Origin: Sinorhizobium terangae | GTDB lineage: Bacteria > Pseudomonadota > Alphaproteobacteria > Rhizobiales > Rhizobiaceae | Direction of reading: 5' to 3' | DNA length: 64,000 nucleotides | Assembly: GCF_009601505.1 (NCBI RefSeq) | Contig: NZ_WITC01000128.1 | Location: 1 to 64,000 of the forward strand | Shown: positions 20,634-26,335 of the stretch, piece after piece | How positions within the stretch are numbered: position 1 is the stretch's first letter | How the letters are laid out: each line of letters starts with the position of its first letter | Program-made: the position numbers and the translations under genes | The notes under the pieces: generated by a model | Told to the model about the DNA's origin: nothing | The model's input: only the letters and a program-made list of their open reading frames with translations | Databases searched by the model: none

Positions 20634-21932
20634 ATGGCACCGGATCGCATTCGATCACTTGATACCCCAACCCCGGCTTCAGGCACCCTACCGCCGCCTC
20701 GTTCCGAAGATTTCCTGCGGCGGCGCCTCAAGCGCAATCGCACCCTGGCGACATCGCTTCTTGTCACCATGGGCGCCGTCTTTGTCGGAACACATTTCGT
20801 TGCCGACCCCGGCTTCGCCACAAGGCTGCTTCGCGCCACGGCCGAGGCGGGAATTGTCGGCGGGCTTGCCGATTGGTTCGCGGTGACGGCGCTTTTTCGG
20901 CACCCGTTGGGCATTCCCATTCCGCACACGGCCATTATCCCGAACAGCAAGGAGCGCATCGGGCAGACCCTTGGCCGTTTCATTGAACGTCACTTCCTGA
21001 CCCAGGAAGTGTTGCTGCGCAAGCTCAAGAGCGCCAACGCGGCGCAGCGTTTTGCGAGATGGCTGTCGACCCCGGAGACTGCACCGGTCATCGCAAACGC
21101 CGTCGTCGCAGCGATGCCCTACCTCGTTCGCTCTCTTGATAGTCACGACCTGCGCGAGTTCGTCCGGCGCACGCTCGGCAGGCAGCTCCGGCAAACAGAT
21201 ATCGCGCCCGTCATGGGCCGCGTGATTCACATGGTTACCGCAAGCGGCGAAGCGGATGTCCTGTTCGAACGCGTCCTGGGCGTCGCCGCCCAGTGGCTCG
21301 AAGACAACCGCGACCAGATCTACCTTCTGGTTCAGCAACGCAGTCGCTGGTGGATCCCGAAGACCATAAACCGGAAAATTGCCGACGCGATCATCACCGG
21401 CTGTGCCGATCTCCTCAACGACCTCAGGGAGCCGGAGAGCGAGGTGCGATTTAAGTTTCGCGAGGCGCTCGCCCATCTGATCAATGAGCTCATCAATTCC
21501 CCGGAGCAGCGCAAGCAGATCAACGCGTCCAAAAATCGTATCCTCGAGCATCCGGATGTTCAGGCCTGGGTCGCCGCCGTTTGGCAAGAGACCTCGCGAG
21601 TGATGCTCGAAGACCTGTCGCAGCCAACCTCGAAAGCACGCGCGGCCGTTGAGAAGATCTGCATGCTCATCGGCAAGACGCTTGCGACCGACCAGGCCAT
21701 GCTGAAACATATGGACGCGTTTCTGGAGGAACTCGCCGTATATCTGGTCTCCTGGCGTCACGAGATCGGCAAGTTTGTGACGGAAGTCGTCAGAAGCTGG
21801 GACAGTCCGACGCTCGTGGAGCGCCTGGAACTCGTCGTCGGCAGCGATCTCCAGTACATCCGCATGAACGGCACCATCGTCGGCGCCCTCGCCGGCAGCC
21901 TTATCTTTCTCACCTCTCAATTGATCGGGTAG
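20634..21932 (+). CDS. DUF445 family membrane protein (YjiN-like)
   Basis: This 432-residue protein matches the DUF445 pattern: an N-terminal hydrophobic segment (LLVTMGAVFVGTHF), the signature AEAGIVGGLADWFAVTALFR and HPLGIPIPHTAIIPN, a long helical middle (residues 110-400) with charged repeats, and a C-terminal membrane helix (GTIVGALAGSLIFLTSQLIG). Members are inner-membrane proteins of unknown function. The ATG at 20634 follows GAGAGGTTATGCC. It sits between two HMA_2-like genes in a region otherwise devoted to metal transport, which is the only hint to its role. Confidence 0.85.
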   Translation: MAPDRIRSLDTPTPASGTLPPPRSEDFLRRRLKRNRTLATSLLVTMGAVFVGTHFVADPGFATRLLRATAEAGIVGGLADWFAVTALFRHPLGIPIPHTAIIPNSKERIGQTLGRFIERHFLTQEVLLRKLKSANAAQRFARWLSTPETAPVIANAVVAAMPYLVRSLDSHDLREFVRRTLGRQLRQTDIAPVMGRVIHMVTASGEADVLFERVLGVAAQWLEDNRDQIYLLVQQRSRWWIPKTINRKIADAIITGCADLLNDLREPESEVRFKFREALAHLINELINSPEQRKQINASKNRILEHPDVQAWVAAVWQETSRVMLEDLSQPTSKARAAVEKICMLIGKTLATDQAMLKHMDAFLEELAVYLVSWRHEIGKFVTEVVRSWDSPTLVERLELVVGSDLQYIRMNGTIVGALAGSLIFLTSQLIG

Positions 21933-21952
21933 CCGCATTCTTCGTGCGGAGC

Positions 21953-22146
21953 GGCTACTGCATGGCTGCTCAAATCGGATGCGACAGCAACCTTTGCGCG
22001 TCCGATCACAATACGCGACGGCAGCTCAATTGGTATTTCGCCTGGAACGAGGGCAGGAGGAGATGCATTGCCGTACCCAACCAACGAGGCAGAAGCTGGC
22101 TGCTGTCGTGTACTGTGGCATCCGATTGAACGCGCGGCGCTAAAGG
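21953..22146. repeat. RIME1-like element interrupted by a small insertion
   Basis: The left part runs GGCTACTGCATGGCTGCTCA, AATCGGATGCGACAGCAACC and TTTGCGCGTCCGAT, as in other RIME copies. The text then breaks and resumes at 22118 with GCATCCGATTGAACGCGCGG and CGCTAAAGG, which is the missing end of the first module. The inserted 111 bases are annotated separately. Confidence 0.65.
22007..22117. mobile_element. 111-bp MITE-like insertion with inverted ends and 9-bp target duplication
   Basis: The ends are inverted repeats: left CACAATACGCGACGGCAGC, right (reverse complement) CACAGTACACGACAGCAGC, matching at 16 of 19 positions with only purine transitions. It is flanked by GCGTCCGAT (21998-22006) and GCATCCGAT (22118-22126), a 9-bp direct repeat with one mismatch. 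Removing the element and one repeat restores a normal RIME module. It has no coding capacity. The mobilising transposase is not identifiable here. Confidence 0.65.
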
Positions 22147-22234
22147 CCATTCCGACTGTAGTCATACTGTCATGCTCGCGGCCTATATGGACCGCAACGC
22201 GGACCCCATGTGGGGCTGGAAATTCCGGAACACG

Positions 22235-22756
22235 ATGAGCAGACGAGCAATGCCGAGCAGAAATTATGCCCAGATCATCCATCGCGCACGGGGGCGAGTG
22301 CGCATCAGGATCCCGGCACGACGACATCACGCAGCGTACTTCAACGAACTTCGGGCAAATCTCCTAGCCTGCGAAGGCGTTCTCGCCGTCCAGGTCAACC
22401 CACTCACCGCAACGGTTCTGATCGAGCATAACGAACCGTGTGACGTGACCGCCCTGAACCACGGGCTCGATCTCGCAAATGCCCGACCTGAACCCGTCTG
22501 CGAGCGCCAGACGCTGCCGCCTGTCGCGCGGATCGATGCACACATTCGCACGCTGTCAGGGGGCGAAATGGATCTCGGCGCGCTGATCGTAAAGGTCGCG
22601 CTGGCGTTGATCTCGCGCCAGCCGGGAGGTCTGATGGTCGAACTGGGTGTCAAGGCAGCAACCCGCTCTGCGCTCTGGCTCGCGGGCCCCGCAGCCACGC
22701 CTGTCGCACCGGCCGGCCTGGAAATTGCGGAGCAACGCCTTCCCGCCGCGGCGTAG
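22235..22756 (+). CDS. HMA_2-like domain protein
   Basis: This protein of about 173 residues has an N-terminal HMA_2-like domain: NYAQIIHRARGRVRIRIPAR, then a helix and VLAVQVNPLTATVLIEHNEP, the beta-alpha-beta pattern of metal-chaperone-like folds but without a CxxC pair. The C-terminal third (LGALIVKVALALISRQPGGL then MVELGVKAATRSALWLAGPA) is hydrophobic and may contact the membrane. Starts at 22172, 22190, 22235 and 22250 are all possible and none has a strong ribosome site. The position between DUF445 and the P-type ATPase suggests a role as partner of that ATPase. Confidence 0.65.
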   Translation: MSRRAMPSRNYAQIIHRARGRVRIRIPARRHHAAYFNELRANLLACEGVLAVQVNPLTATVLIEHNEPCDVTALNHGLDLANARPEPVCERQTLPPVARIDAHIRTLSGGEMDLGALIVKVALALISRQPGGLMVELGVKAATRSALWLAGPAATPVAPAGLEIAEQRLPAAA

Positions 22757-22817: not shown

Positions 22818-22918
22818 CCTACAGGGCCGCGCGTCCAATCGGACGCGCTAAGGTCGCTGTAACAATTTGAATGGCTGCATGATCCTTAAATCGATTCCGA
22901 TTTAAGGATCATGCAGTA
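22818..22918. repeat. RIME1-like element, copy 6 (complete)
   Basis: CTACAGGGCCGCGCGTCCAA and TCGGACGCGCTAAGGTCGCT are followed by a near-perfect second module, GCATGATCCTTAAATCGATT then CCGATTTAAGGATCATGC. It lies between convergent genes. Confidence 0.8.
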
Positions 22919-23029
22919 GCCGGTCGCGGTGCCGCAACCCCCTGCCCTCATTCGTGTTCTCGTCACAGGAAAGAGGGCGAAAAGCATCCCCAAACCAATT
23001 GAGCTGCTGTCATGTGATGTGGCGTCTGG

Positions 23030-26000
23030 TTACTTCGCACCATGCGGACGTAGCCATGACACGTTGGCCGGCGCCTCCAACAGCCTGGGGCGGGACTCAT
23101 TGGCAGGCGCCATTGGCGCTCGCGTGAAGGTGAGCGGCGCGCTCGCATGGCTCGTGCTGGCGCTGAGAGCCGACTTGCGCACCTCGGCGATTGCAAACGG
23201 AAGCGTTCCGCCGGCGAGCATGATGCCTGCATCAAGGATGCCGAGCGGTGCGAGGCCGAGCAGTCTGCGGATGCCGGGCACGAACAAGGCAGCCGACTGC
23301 GCCGCCACCGAACCGGCCAGAATGCCCGTGAGTGCCGGGTTGGCGGGGCTGGATCCGCGATCGAAAACACTACGCGTGGACGAGCGGCAGGTGATCGCAT
23401 GGAGCAGTTGGGCCGTCACCAGAGCGCCGAAGGTCATGGTCCGCACGATCGGCGAAGCAGTCCCATAGCGCATCGCGCCGTAGAGGCCTGCCGCCATGGC
23501 GCCTGAGCCGAGCAGCGCCGCCTCGCTGGTGAGCGAGGCGAGATTCTGGACTCCAGGCAGGGCTTTGTCCGCGACCATGGGCCCGTCCTGCATGCCGGCG
23601 GCTTCCGGCGGCTCCATCGCGAGACCGAGTCCCGGCAGCACGTCGGAGATGAGATTGATCCACAGGAGTTGCATCGGCGAGAGGACCTCGCCAAGGCCCA
23701 CGGCCATGCCACACAGCATGACGAGGACCTCGCTGAAATTCGTGCTGAAGAGATAGTGTATCGCCTTGCGGATATTCGTGAAGGTGGTGCGGCCTCTCTC
23801 GATTGCCGGAATGAGGCCGCCCAGATCATCCGTGGCGAGATAGACGTCCGCCGTCTCGCGTGCCGCTGCGTACGGGTCCCGACCCAAAGCGATACCGACA
23901 TCGGCTGCGCGCAGCGCCGGACTGTCGTTGATACCGTCGCCGATCATCGCCACCGTGGCTCCCGATTGCTGCAGGGCACGAATGATCTTGAGCTTCTGTG
24001 CGGGGCCGACGCGCGAGAAGGCCTGCGCCCGGCGCGCCGCAACCGCCAATTCGGCCTCCGTCATGCGGTCAACGTCGACGGCGTCGACAATGTCAATGTC
24101 TCCCGTCCCGTTCAGGCCGACCTTATGGGCGACGGCTCGGGCCGTCGCCCGCTGATCGCCGGTCAGAATGATCGTCTGGAGTCCGGCCCGATGAAGCTCC
24201 GCCATCAGCGATTTCAAACCCGGGCGGACGGGATCGGCCAGGCCGGCGAGGCCAACCCATGTCAGTTCCGCAACCGCCGGTTCGTCTTGCGTTTCGTCGC
24301 CAACATCGCGATAGGCAAAACCGAGAACCCGCAGCGCGCGATCCGCCAGTTCGGCGTTGATTCCCTCGATCCGGTCGCGGCGCTCCGGCGTCAGAGGCCT
24401 GCGCCCACCGCCGGCCAGTCCCTCCCACCGGCAGCGATCGAGAACTTCGAGAGGGCTTCCTTTCACGGCGAGAAGCAGGCGACCGTTGTTGGCATGCGCG
24501 CTCGCCATAAAACGGTAGGTTTCGGTGCGTTGCTGCAGAGACACCTTCGGGAACCCTCGACGCAATGCGGCAACGTCAATTTCACTGTCGATCGCTGCCT
24601 GGACGAGCGCCTTCTCGGTAGCCGAACCGTTGAGGATACTGTCGCCTTCGTCTGCCTCGACCTCCGCCTCGCTGCAGAGACAGCCGATCGTGAGCAGCCT
24701 TCTCAAGCAGTCGTTTCCGTTTGGGTGCGCCACGGCATCATCATGGCCGTCGAGCCGACTGCCCTCTCCAGCCTGGTAAATCTGGTCTCCGCAGACGGCG
24801 ACTTCCACGGACATGCGGCCGAAGGTCAGGGTGCCGGTCTTGTCGAAGCAGGCGACCTGCACGGCTGCCATCGGCTCCACAGCTTCGAGCCGGCGCACGA
24901 GAATATTGCGTCGTCGCAGGTCCTCGACACCGAGCGCGAGTGTCGTAACAGCGAGCACGGGCAGACCCTCTGGAACCGCGGCCACGACAAGGGACAAGGC
25001 CGATCGGGCGGCTTGGTAGAGCGCGATCCCGCGCAACCAGCCGATGCCGACAATGAGTCCGCCCGCATAGAGCGTCAGCCATCCGAGTTGTCGCCCCAGT
25101 TCGCCCATTTGCCGCTGCATGGGTGTTTGCGGCGCCAAGGTTGCGCCGACGAGCTGTTGAACTCTTCCGATCTCGGTCCGCGCGCCCGTCGCCACAACAA
25201 TGGCTGTGCCGCTCCCGCCCGTCACCACCGTGCCGCGGTAGACCATACTGGTCCGCTCCGCGAGCGGAAGCGTCACGGCTACGGGCGCATCGGATTTGCG
25301 GACCGGCATGCTCTCGCCGGTCAATCCCGCCTCGCTGACGGTCAGTCCGCGCACGGCGGACAGGCGCGCGTCGGCCGGCACCACCATGCCGCGCTCCAGC
25401 ATCAGAACATCGCCCGGGACAAGCGTCTCCGCCGCCACCTCGTGCGGATCGCCATCGCGAATTACTCTCGCGGCCTGCGGCGCCGGCAGGTTCAGGCTCT
25501 GGATGATCCGCTCGGTTCCGGTCTCGGTCCTGTAGCCAATGGCGGCGTTCACCCCCATCACCGCCAAAATCGCCCCGACCTCGAGCAAGGCTCCGGTGAC
25601 GAGGGAGACGACCGCCGCACCGGCCAGCAGCGCGACGGGTACGCTATCGAACTGGGCGAGAAAGATGCCGAGGTTGGAGCGCGTTGGAAGCGCTGGTAGA
25701 GCGTTGCTTCCCGCAGCCACCAGGCGCTCCCGCGCCTCGTCTTCGGATAATCCACGTGTGCGGGACGTCGCTAGGTCGGTCGCTACCGCTTCCGTGTCCA
25801 GATGGTGCCAGCCCTTTTTGTCACGGGAATCGTCGTCGGACGGCCCGATGCCGCTTTGCAGGAGCTCGATGATCCGCCCGATGATCGCCTCGAGTGGCGT
25901 GGCTGGATCGTAATGAACGAGCAGATTGCCGGTGAGCGGACTCGCCGCGGCACCGGAAACGCCGCCAATCGCAGGGAGAGTACGCTCGAGAAATCTCTGA

Positions 26001-26218
26001 ACCTGGTTGCTTTCCACGAGCGCATCGATATGAAGACGCGCTCTCCCGGGTGCCGCGGCGTGCACCAGCCGGATGGAGACAGGCGTTGGCGCAACGGCAT
26101 CGGCAACGGCCACACCTTGCGGCTGATCCTGAAGGTCGCCTTGGCGACCGTGTGCGCCGCCGCTGCTCGACCCGGGCCTTTCGCGCCTGCGTGGCCCACC
26201 TGTTGCCATTTGGGGCAT
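23030..26218 (-). CDS. P2-type cation-transporting ATPase with N-terminal HMA_2-like domain
   Basis: This 1062-residue ion pump has, in order, a disordered Arg/Gly-rich start (1-45), an HMA_2-like domain (about 48-120, AAPGRARLHIDALVE), a cation-ATPase N-terminal domain (LSEDEARERLVAAGSNALP), the actuator loop with TGES (about 300), a membrane helix with PEGLP (about 416), the phosphorylation site DKTGT (about 459), the nucleotide site KGSP (about 586), GDGIND (about 760) and six C-terminal membrane helices. PEGLP in place of CPC marks it as P2-like (Ca/Mg/Mn type) rather than a P1B heavy-metal pump. ATG 26218 follows GAGGGACGG; GTG 26251 is an alternative. A DUF5132 gene lies upstream on the same strand. 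Confidence 0.9.
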   Translation of the reverse strand: MPQMATGGPRRRERPGSSSGGAHGRQGDLQDQPQGVAVADAVAPTPVSIRLVHAAAPGRARLHIDALVESNQVQRFLERTLPAIGGVSGAAASPLTGNLLVHYDPATPLEAIIGRIIELLQSGIGPSDDDSRDKKGWHHLDTEAVATDLATSRTRGLSEDEARERLVAAGSNALPALPTRSNLGIFLAQFDSVPVALLAGAAVVSLVTGALLEVGAILAVMGVNAAIGYRTETGTERIIQSLNLPAPQAARVIRDGDPHEVAAETLVPGDVLMLERGMVVPADARLSAVRGLTVSEAGLTGESMPVRKSDAPVAVTLPLAERTSMVYRGTVVTGGSGTAIVVATGARTEIGRVQQLVGATLAPQTPMQRQMGELGRQLGWLTLYAGGLIVGIGWLRGIALYQAARSALSLVVAAVPEGLPVLAVTTLALGVEDLRRRNILVRRLEAVEPMAAVQVACFDKTGTLTFGRMSVEVAVCGDQIYQAGEGSRLDGHDDAVAHPNGNDCLRRLLTIGCLCSEAEVEADEGDSILNGSATEKALVQAAIDSEIDVAALRRGFPKVSLQQRTETYRFMASAHANNGRLLLAVKGSPLEVLDRCRWEGLAGGGRRPLTPERRDRIEGINAELADRALRVLGFAYRDVGDETQDEPAVAELTWVGLAGLADPVRPGLKSLMAELHRAGLQTIILTGDQRATARAVAHKVGLNGTGDIDIVDAVDVDRMTEAELAVAARRAQAFSRVGPAQKLKIIRALQQSGATVAMIGDGINDSPALRAADVGIALGRDPYAAARETADVYLATDDLGGLIPAIERGRTTFTNIRKAIHYLFSTNFSEVLVMLCGMAVGLGEVLSPMQLLWINLISDVLPGLGLAMEPPEAAGMQDGPMVADKALPGVQNLASLTSEAALLGSGAMAAGLYGAMRYGTASPIVRTMTFGALVTAQLLHAITCRSSTRSVFDRGSSPANPALTGILAGSVAAQSAALFVPGIRRLLGLAPLGILDAGIMLAGGTLPFAIAEVRKSALSASTSHASAPLTFTRAPMAPANESRPRLLEAPANVSWLRPHGAK

Positions 26219-26245
26219 ACGACCGTCCCTCGCCGGCAGCTTCTC

Positions 26246-26335
26246 TAGCACCGCGCGTCTTATCGGATGGGCGCTGTAGCAAGTTGAATTGCTGCATGTC
26301 GGTGAACCGGCTACGATTCAAGAAACATGCGGCAG
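26246..26335. repeat. RIME1-like element, copy 7, inside a probable operon
   Basis: CACCGCGCGTCTTATCGGAT, GGGCGCTGTAGCAAGTTG, then ATTGCTGCATGTCGGTG and GCTACGATTCAAGAAACATG. It separates the DUF5132 gene from the ATPase gene on the same strand and could stabilise or attenuate a shared transcript. Confidence 0.7.

Follow-up and report, generated by a model that had tools for sequence, protein, structure and literature searches.

The window, that is, the whole 64,000-nucleotide stretch of Sinorhizobium terangae DNA analysed here, carries a DUF445 gene (20634-21932) and a gene for a protein with a heavy-metal-associated domain (22172-22756), both assigned with Pfam. Between them lies a RIME1 repeat (Osteras 1995), interrupted by a 111-bp MITE. 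The parts of this locus and of a neighbouring one are as follows.

21955-22006, plus strand: left RIME1 half, with the target 9-mer as its last bases (compared by eye with the intact RIME1 of the orthologous locus L155)
21998-22006, plus strand: left copy of the target-site duplication, GCGTCCGAT
22007-22117, plus strand: MITE copy of 111 bp, most likely an internally deleted member of a family of about 230 bp
22007-22025, plus strand: left terminal inverted repeat, CACAATACGCGACGGCAGC
22026-22041, plus strand: left-arm remnant (13 arm columns gapped in alignment A1)
22042-22052, plus strand: CTGGAACGAGG, most likely what is left of the right edge of the palindromic core (116 bp) found in longer copies (alignment A1)
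22053-22098, plus strand: right arm
22099-22117, minus strand: right terminal inverted repeat, CACAGTACACGACAGCAGC
22118-22126, plus strand: right copy of the target-site duplication, GCATCCGAT
22118-22141, plus strand: right half of the split first module of RIME1
22828-22919, no strand assigned: another RIME1 beside the truncated copy (sequence read by eye)
22922-23021, minus strand: second, truncated copy of the MITE family, which retains one end, at 23021 (CACATCACATGACAGCAGC), the left arm and a remnant of the core but has lost its right end

A sequence-only reading of this DNA had described a 111-bp MITE-like element with a 9-bp target duplication inside a RIME repeat. The coordinates and letters of the element, its ends and the flanking 9-mers are exact, the 9-mers agree at eight of nine positions, and the host repeat is RIME1. 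Read as an inverted pair, the two 19-bp ends agree at 16 of 19 positions, as had also been stated; compared with the family end CACAGTACACGACAGTAGC, the left end agrees at 15 of 19 positions and the right at 18 of 19. A scan of the window for ends matching at 16/19 or better, a flanking duplication of at least 8/9 and an element length of 60-500 bp returned 22007-22117 as the single passing pair, and the same thresholds returned none in five first-order-Markov randomised windows. The element is non-coding; an overlapping open reading frame listed at 21917-22330 (minus strand) is a mechanical call and lies mostly outside it. As single-stranded DNA the window copy folds with a z-score of -2.1. 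An Rfam search of four loci (L033, L034, L035 and L039, by E-value) gave six matches, each under its own gathering score, to plant microRNA models on the palindrome and to a Brucella sRNA model.

The truncated copy at 22922-23021, which was absent from the earlier reading, lies 0.9 kb from the 111-bp element and immediately precedes the end of a minus-strand P-type ATPase gene (23030-26251). Elsewhere in the same genome, contig C49 has a diverged, longer copy of the family, and contig C32 a second copy that is 100% identical to the one in the window. The latter appears to be an assembly duplicate, since contigs C32 and C33 share a length of 69,527 bp and the two pairs of stretches of about 3 kb that were compared are exact reverse complements; the region holding the window thus looks redundantly assembled.

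Excision of the element together with one 9-mer restores a first module of RIME1 that differs by a single mismatch from the intact orthologue of genome G010, which bears out the claim that removal rejoins a normal first module; the second module is shorter than in that orthologue. Three relatives align well on both sides of the orthologous locus and G017 does so more weakly (72% on the right). Inspection by eye showed an intact RIME1 with a single GCGTCCGAT in G010, an uninterrupted RIME1 in G026 with a decayed, separate element 5' to it, and no RIME1 in G028 or G017. Empty sites had been proposed as a check, and two relatives, G010 and G026, provide them. The 111-bp insertion between GCGTCCGAT and GCATCCGAT is present in the window and, also by eye, in G032, the other genome of the species, which has one copy in the same place and two differences over 3,146 bp. 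This shared copy has degenerated, and the earlier description of the insertion as recent is not supported, because its ends and duplication are decayed, it is common to both genomes of the species, and its likeliest reading is an element of about 230 bp that has lost internal sequence.

A Sinorhizobium MITE family and its nine-base target

The family has the ends CACAGTACACGACAGYAG and measures about 230 bp at full length. Allowing one mismatch at most, the end pattern was found at 103 places, spread over 23 of the 33 genus genomes (two of these places being one place of the source genome in duplicate), compared with none for the reversed-pattern control. Similarly, the right two thirds of the window element recur in 18 of the 33 genomes (E <= 0.001), and positions 22044-22117 reach up to 91% identity with copies from other genus members. 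The many dispersed copies and empty sites, together with the non-coding 111-bp form and its terminal inverted repeats, are those of a MITE. In the open papers searched, no description of the family was found; a name for it may exist in the older RIME literature.

Full-length copies consist of two arms flanking a palindromic core of about 116 bp, and one of them, as single-stranded DNA, folds with a z-score of -14.3. The core palindrome may correspond to RIME2, a name that is not asserted here. Alignment A1 shows the window copy to have kept only CTGGAACGAGG of the core and to miss 13 left-arm columns, and three other short forms of 131-144 bp (L052, L062 and L070) retain differing amounts of core. 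Of 27 core loci considered in four genomes, 14 match the core at 111 or more of its 116 positions, and by eye every one of these 14 carries one arm or both; part-length core palindromes were also found without arms. Because short forms keep differing core remnants and every near-complete core inspected has an arm, the 111-bp form most likely arose by deletion from the element of about 230 bp.

Pairing of ends gave 44 candidate elements, of which six from other genera were dropped and one overlap merged, leaving 37 in the genus (L080 counted twice). Mean identity of their flanks was 0.577 at a register of 9 bp, in contrast to 0.142 at 8 bp and 0.211 at 10 bp, and the highest mean in 200 pair shuffles at 9 bp was 0.419. 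At this register, 16 of the 37 candidates have a duplication of at least 7/9 and three have 9/9, while none reaches 77% flank identity at 8 or 10 bp. The duplication is therefore of fixed length, in the 9-bp register only; the 6-bp register of the ISRm22 type gave a mean of 0.243 for the 37 candidates compared with a shuffled mean of 0.222. The remaining 21 candidates fall below 7/9, for which decay, rearrangement or false pairing could each be the cause. More copies with 9-bp duplications, which the sequence-only reading had named as confirmation, were thus found.

The sequence-only reading had not mentioned a preferred target. Among 116 distinct ends (at most two mismatches; loci of other genera and of insertion sequences left out), 69 lie directly against GCGTCYGAT, the RIME1 nonamer, or its complement, matched with at most two mismatches, compared with 0-2 at 11 other offsets. 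By orientation, 25 ends abut GCGTCYRAT, 44 its complement and 47 neither, so the block is not confined to RIME1. Related genomes share some insertions, and these end counts thus overstate independence. The target is one arm plus the loop of the first palindrome of RIME1, which the MITE has entered in both orientations (L034 and L062 as opposed to L035 and L039). RIME1 first modules number 312 in G010 and 195 in G032 (at most three mismatches; control 0), so targets far outnumber insertions. Outside RIME1, a second recurrent flank, a palindrome resembling GTTTCAATGAAAC, was seen at L057, L096, L131 and L144.

Copies are gathered regionally along some chromosomes. All 15 ends listed for the 4,218,344-bp chromosome of G010 (C1) lie at 2.54-3.38 Mb, all eight of G005 (C1) at 2.11-2.51 Mb of 4.34 Mb, and all four of G016 (C1) at 2.43-2.65 Mb of 4.32 Mb. 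The terminus-centred half of the G010 chromosome holds 15 of 15 ends but only 19 or 20 of its 35 perfect RIME1 targets (Fisher p 0.0009-0.002, with a centre partly chosen after the data were seen). GC skew in G010, taken at 20 samples, switches sign once within 3.52-3.74 Mb and once within 1.10-1.32 Mb. A replication-terminus (dif) pattern matched in none of eight genomes. Against a general rule of clustering, ends in G007, G009, G021 and G024 occur on other replicons as well.

A candidate mobiliser of the IS4 family

An autonomous element was sought in the genus by the end pattern. No transposase was found among 106 distinct end contexts, read about 90 bp inwards; 98 of these scored as a MITE arm and eight did not, and by eye six of the eight are decayed arms and two (L048 and L060) enter the 3' end of an ordinary gene. 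At L048, L060 and L184, a lone end and a RIME1 remnant lie behind a gene that appears SRPBCC-like by eye. A 3.17-kb pair of facing ends in G029 was considered as an autonomous element and rejected, as it has a MITE left arm at both ends (open reading frames considered for the first 1.5 kb). At L056 and L069, right MITE arms directly adjoin what by eye appear to be ends of IS110-family transposases, an arrangement suggesting that other insertion sequences insert into the MITE. A scan of genome contigs with the exact 19-mer gave 11 stretches, nine from Ensifer/Sinorhizobium and two from MAG contigs; the latter two share one unrelated sequence and were taken as chance matches.

Beyond the genus, the exact 15-base end occurs at 20 places in 11 of 394 Rhizobiaceae genomes, compared with five places for the reversed pattern, and the 18-base pattern is not above control there (four places compared with three). 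The case outside the genus rests on partner ends and duplications, and two matches (G085 and G158) have no partner end. In G303, the end bounds a 1,191-bp insertion sequence (IS) whose IS4-like transposase is broken by one stop. The N-terminal piece of this transposase, used as a query, found 11 places in 10 of the 394 genomes; six of the 11 loci (5/10 without G303) have at least one end within two mismatches of CACAGTACACGACAG, and the other five have none. The same query gave no match in the source genome, though a more distant intact transposase could escape such a query.

One such related element is L321 in G100, a 1190-bp element with a 366-aa open reading frame and a 9/9 duplication, GTTCAATAT. 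Its protein is assigned to NCBIfam IS4 model NF033591 (229.8 bits; cut-off 152) and to Pfam DDE_Tnp_1 (PF01609), that is, to DDE transposases of the IS4 type, a gene that the window element itself lacks. Among plasmid records, an IS from Cereibacter (L334) has a 9/9 duplication and one from Roseomonas (L333) 8/9; a second Roseomonas record (L332) has one good end and no convincing partner. The 1,182-bp element L322 in G138 encodes 364 aa and has flanks matching at 3/9, hence no duplication, and the 1,204-bp element L326 in G096 has poorer ends (4 + 4 mismatches in 15) and likewise 3/9. At L320, a MITE-like end is present and the duplication is unreadable at the contig end. Thus, three of the four readable related ISs of 1182-1191 bp with nearly the MITE ends have duplications of 8-9/9. 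The ends in common are those of L320, L321, L322, L333, L334 and a relic, L331, all outside the source genome, and the likeness between MITE and IS extends over only about the outer 13-16 bp.

Within the genus, only fragments or broken frames of the lineage were found, in three of 33 genomes and on an S. fredii SMH12 plasmid. The plasmid relic, L331, is a decayed Sinorhizobium IS lying in RIME1, and L317 in G006 is the orthologous place, so the pair represents a single insertion event. In each, the ends are CACACTACACRACAGTC and the flanks ATCAGACGC/ATCGAACGC agree at 7/9, at the same RIME1 nonamer that the MITE uses, which ties the IS lineage to the RIME1 target. On sequence likeness, the IS4-family lineage is the likely mobiliser of the MITE, and the earlier view of a non-autonomous element moved in trans is accordingly plausible, given a putative transposase with nearly the same ends in related bacteria. 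The hope that a search would lead to the parent transposase was realized in part: a candidate IS4 lineage was found in related bacteria, but no intact member in the source genome or among the 33 genomes of the genus.

The same ends also bound other elements in further genera of Rhizobiaceae. In G095, a 14-base end occurs 17 times compared with once for the control, and 10 end pairs comprise three with a 9/9 duplication, one with 8/9 and six with 6/9 or less. Single pairs in G223 and G315 have 9/9 and 8/9, respectively, and two pairs of about 304 bp in G144 have 8/9 and 6/9. By locus, duplications are 9/9 at L233, L236, L239 and L248, 8/9 at L237, L247 and L307, 7/9 at L177 and 2/9 at L180. The interiors of these elements are unlike the Sinorhizobium core, and by eye several hold other palindromic repeats. 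It is conceivable, and put forward here only tentatively, that an IS4-family lineage and its MITEs are specialised on palindromic repeats as rhizobial landing pads, using the RIME1 nonamer in Sinorhizobium and perhaps another palindrome (seen by eye) in G095. On this reading, the same ends are paired with different palindromic repeats in several genera, and transposition of such pairs would help to explain the spread of rhizobial palindromic repeats; in at least one genome, copies pile up on the terminus side even though RIME1 targets span the whole chromosome.

Origin of the element and relation to known systems

The feature at 22007-22117 is best explained, with a probability of roughly 0.85, as a degenerate, internally deleted Sinorhizobium MITE moved in trans by an IS4-family DDE transposase into the RIME1 nonamer, with duplication of 9 bp. 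A transposase of the lineage with nearly the same ends would act on the MITE and insert it at GCGTCYGAT, across stem and loop of a pre-existing RIME1. IS4-family elements usually transpose by cut-and-paste, and the same mechanism may apply here; the palindromic core would have been lost by deletion. No cellular role is proposed, and the element is most likely a selfish passenger between genes.

Another transposase, such as an ISRm22-like one or a non-IS4 element with similar ends, could have moved the family; this is unlikely, though ISRm22 (IS4 family) and ISRm19 are described as inserting in S. meliloti REP sequences (PMC1525189), and no intact transposase of the proposed lineage was found in the 33 genomes of the genus. 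The 6-bp repeats at the palindrome axis given for ISRm22 in that source differ from the 9 bp over stem plus loop seen here, and half of the 10 transposase loci other than that of G303 have an end close to CACAGTACACGACAG. It is improbable, too, that the 111-bp form is ancestral and that copies of about 230 bp gained the core later, a course favoured by the presence of a portion of the core palindrome in other surroundings (L257, L263, L266 and L267); it sits poorly with CTGGAACGAGG from the core's right edge in a window copy without 13 left-arm columns, with the different core remnants of L052, L062 and L070, and with the arms found by eye at 14/14 near-complete cores.

Two further readings would deny mobility altogether. 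RIME elements are by name mosaics, and with 69/116 ends at the RIME1 nonamer the block might be taken for a fixed variant module of that mosaic, immobile and spreading only with RIME1. The 47/116 ends away from the nonamer, the insertions outside RIME1, the two orientations within it, the 9-bp duplication and the precise empty RIME1 at the orthologous locus make this very improbable, and it was judged refuted. The sequence-only reading had itself named a chance arrangement of inverted and direct repeats as the counter-case, and one mismatch in the duplication and three in the ends speak for it. With no pair in five randomised windows, 103 matches across the genus against none for the control, and empty sites, such an arrangement has a negligible probability and was likewise judged refuted. 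The family is real and ordinary in kind; its preference for one target is striking, and the lineage of a candidate transposase can be traced.

A Sinorhizobium MITE family is thereby provided with a candidate transposase lineage, a precise RIME1 target, and filled and empty sites placed by synteny, so that the growth of nested rhizobial intergenic repeats becomes testable. Questions that can be put in this way include which transposase is the mover, whether RIME1 serves as a safe landing site that spares genes, and why copies gather regionally in some genomes.

Bacterial MITEs are short and non-coding, with inverted ends, a target duplication of fixed length, many copies and ends common to a transposase-coding element. 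The present family resembles the MITEs of bacterial ISs in all of these respects; unlike MITEs generally, it strongly prefers one 9-bp site inside another repeat family, and no intact partner was found in the 33 genomes of its host genus. With the IS4 lineage of NF033591 it shares the outer 13-16 bp or so of the ends, the 9-bp duplication (three of four readable ISs) and, through the relic, the same RIME1 site, but it has no transposase gene and a different interior. One relative in that lineage is annotated as ISLpn9 family in record AP031464, and ISAba1 transposases appear at about 40-42% identity among the plasmid matches listed; a 9-bp duplication is given as characteristic of ISAba1 (PMC7885321).

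RIME1 is here the landing site, its halves flanking the element, and what has been inserted is a mobile element distinct from it. PMC2573895 mentions the RIMEs and Sm repeats of S. meliloti, and alpha-proteobacterial CGTC-tagged palindromes are treated in PMC3733652 as having no dedicated transposase. A further parallel is the insertion of ISRm22 (IS4) into S. meliloti REP sequences, described with 6-bp direct repeats at the palindrome axis, and the similar behaviour of ISRm19 (Tobes and Pareja 2006, PMC1525189). Like these elements as described there, the present family is mobile and inserts into Sinorhizobium palindromic repeats at a fixed position; unlike ISRm22, a full IS with 6-bp repeats, it is non-autonomous and generates repeats of 9 bp.
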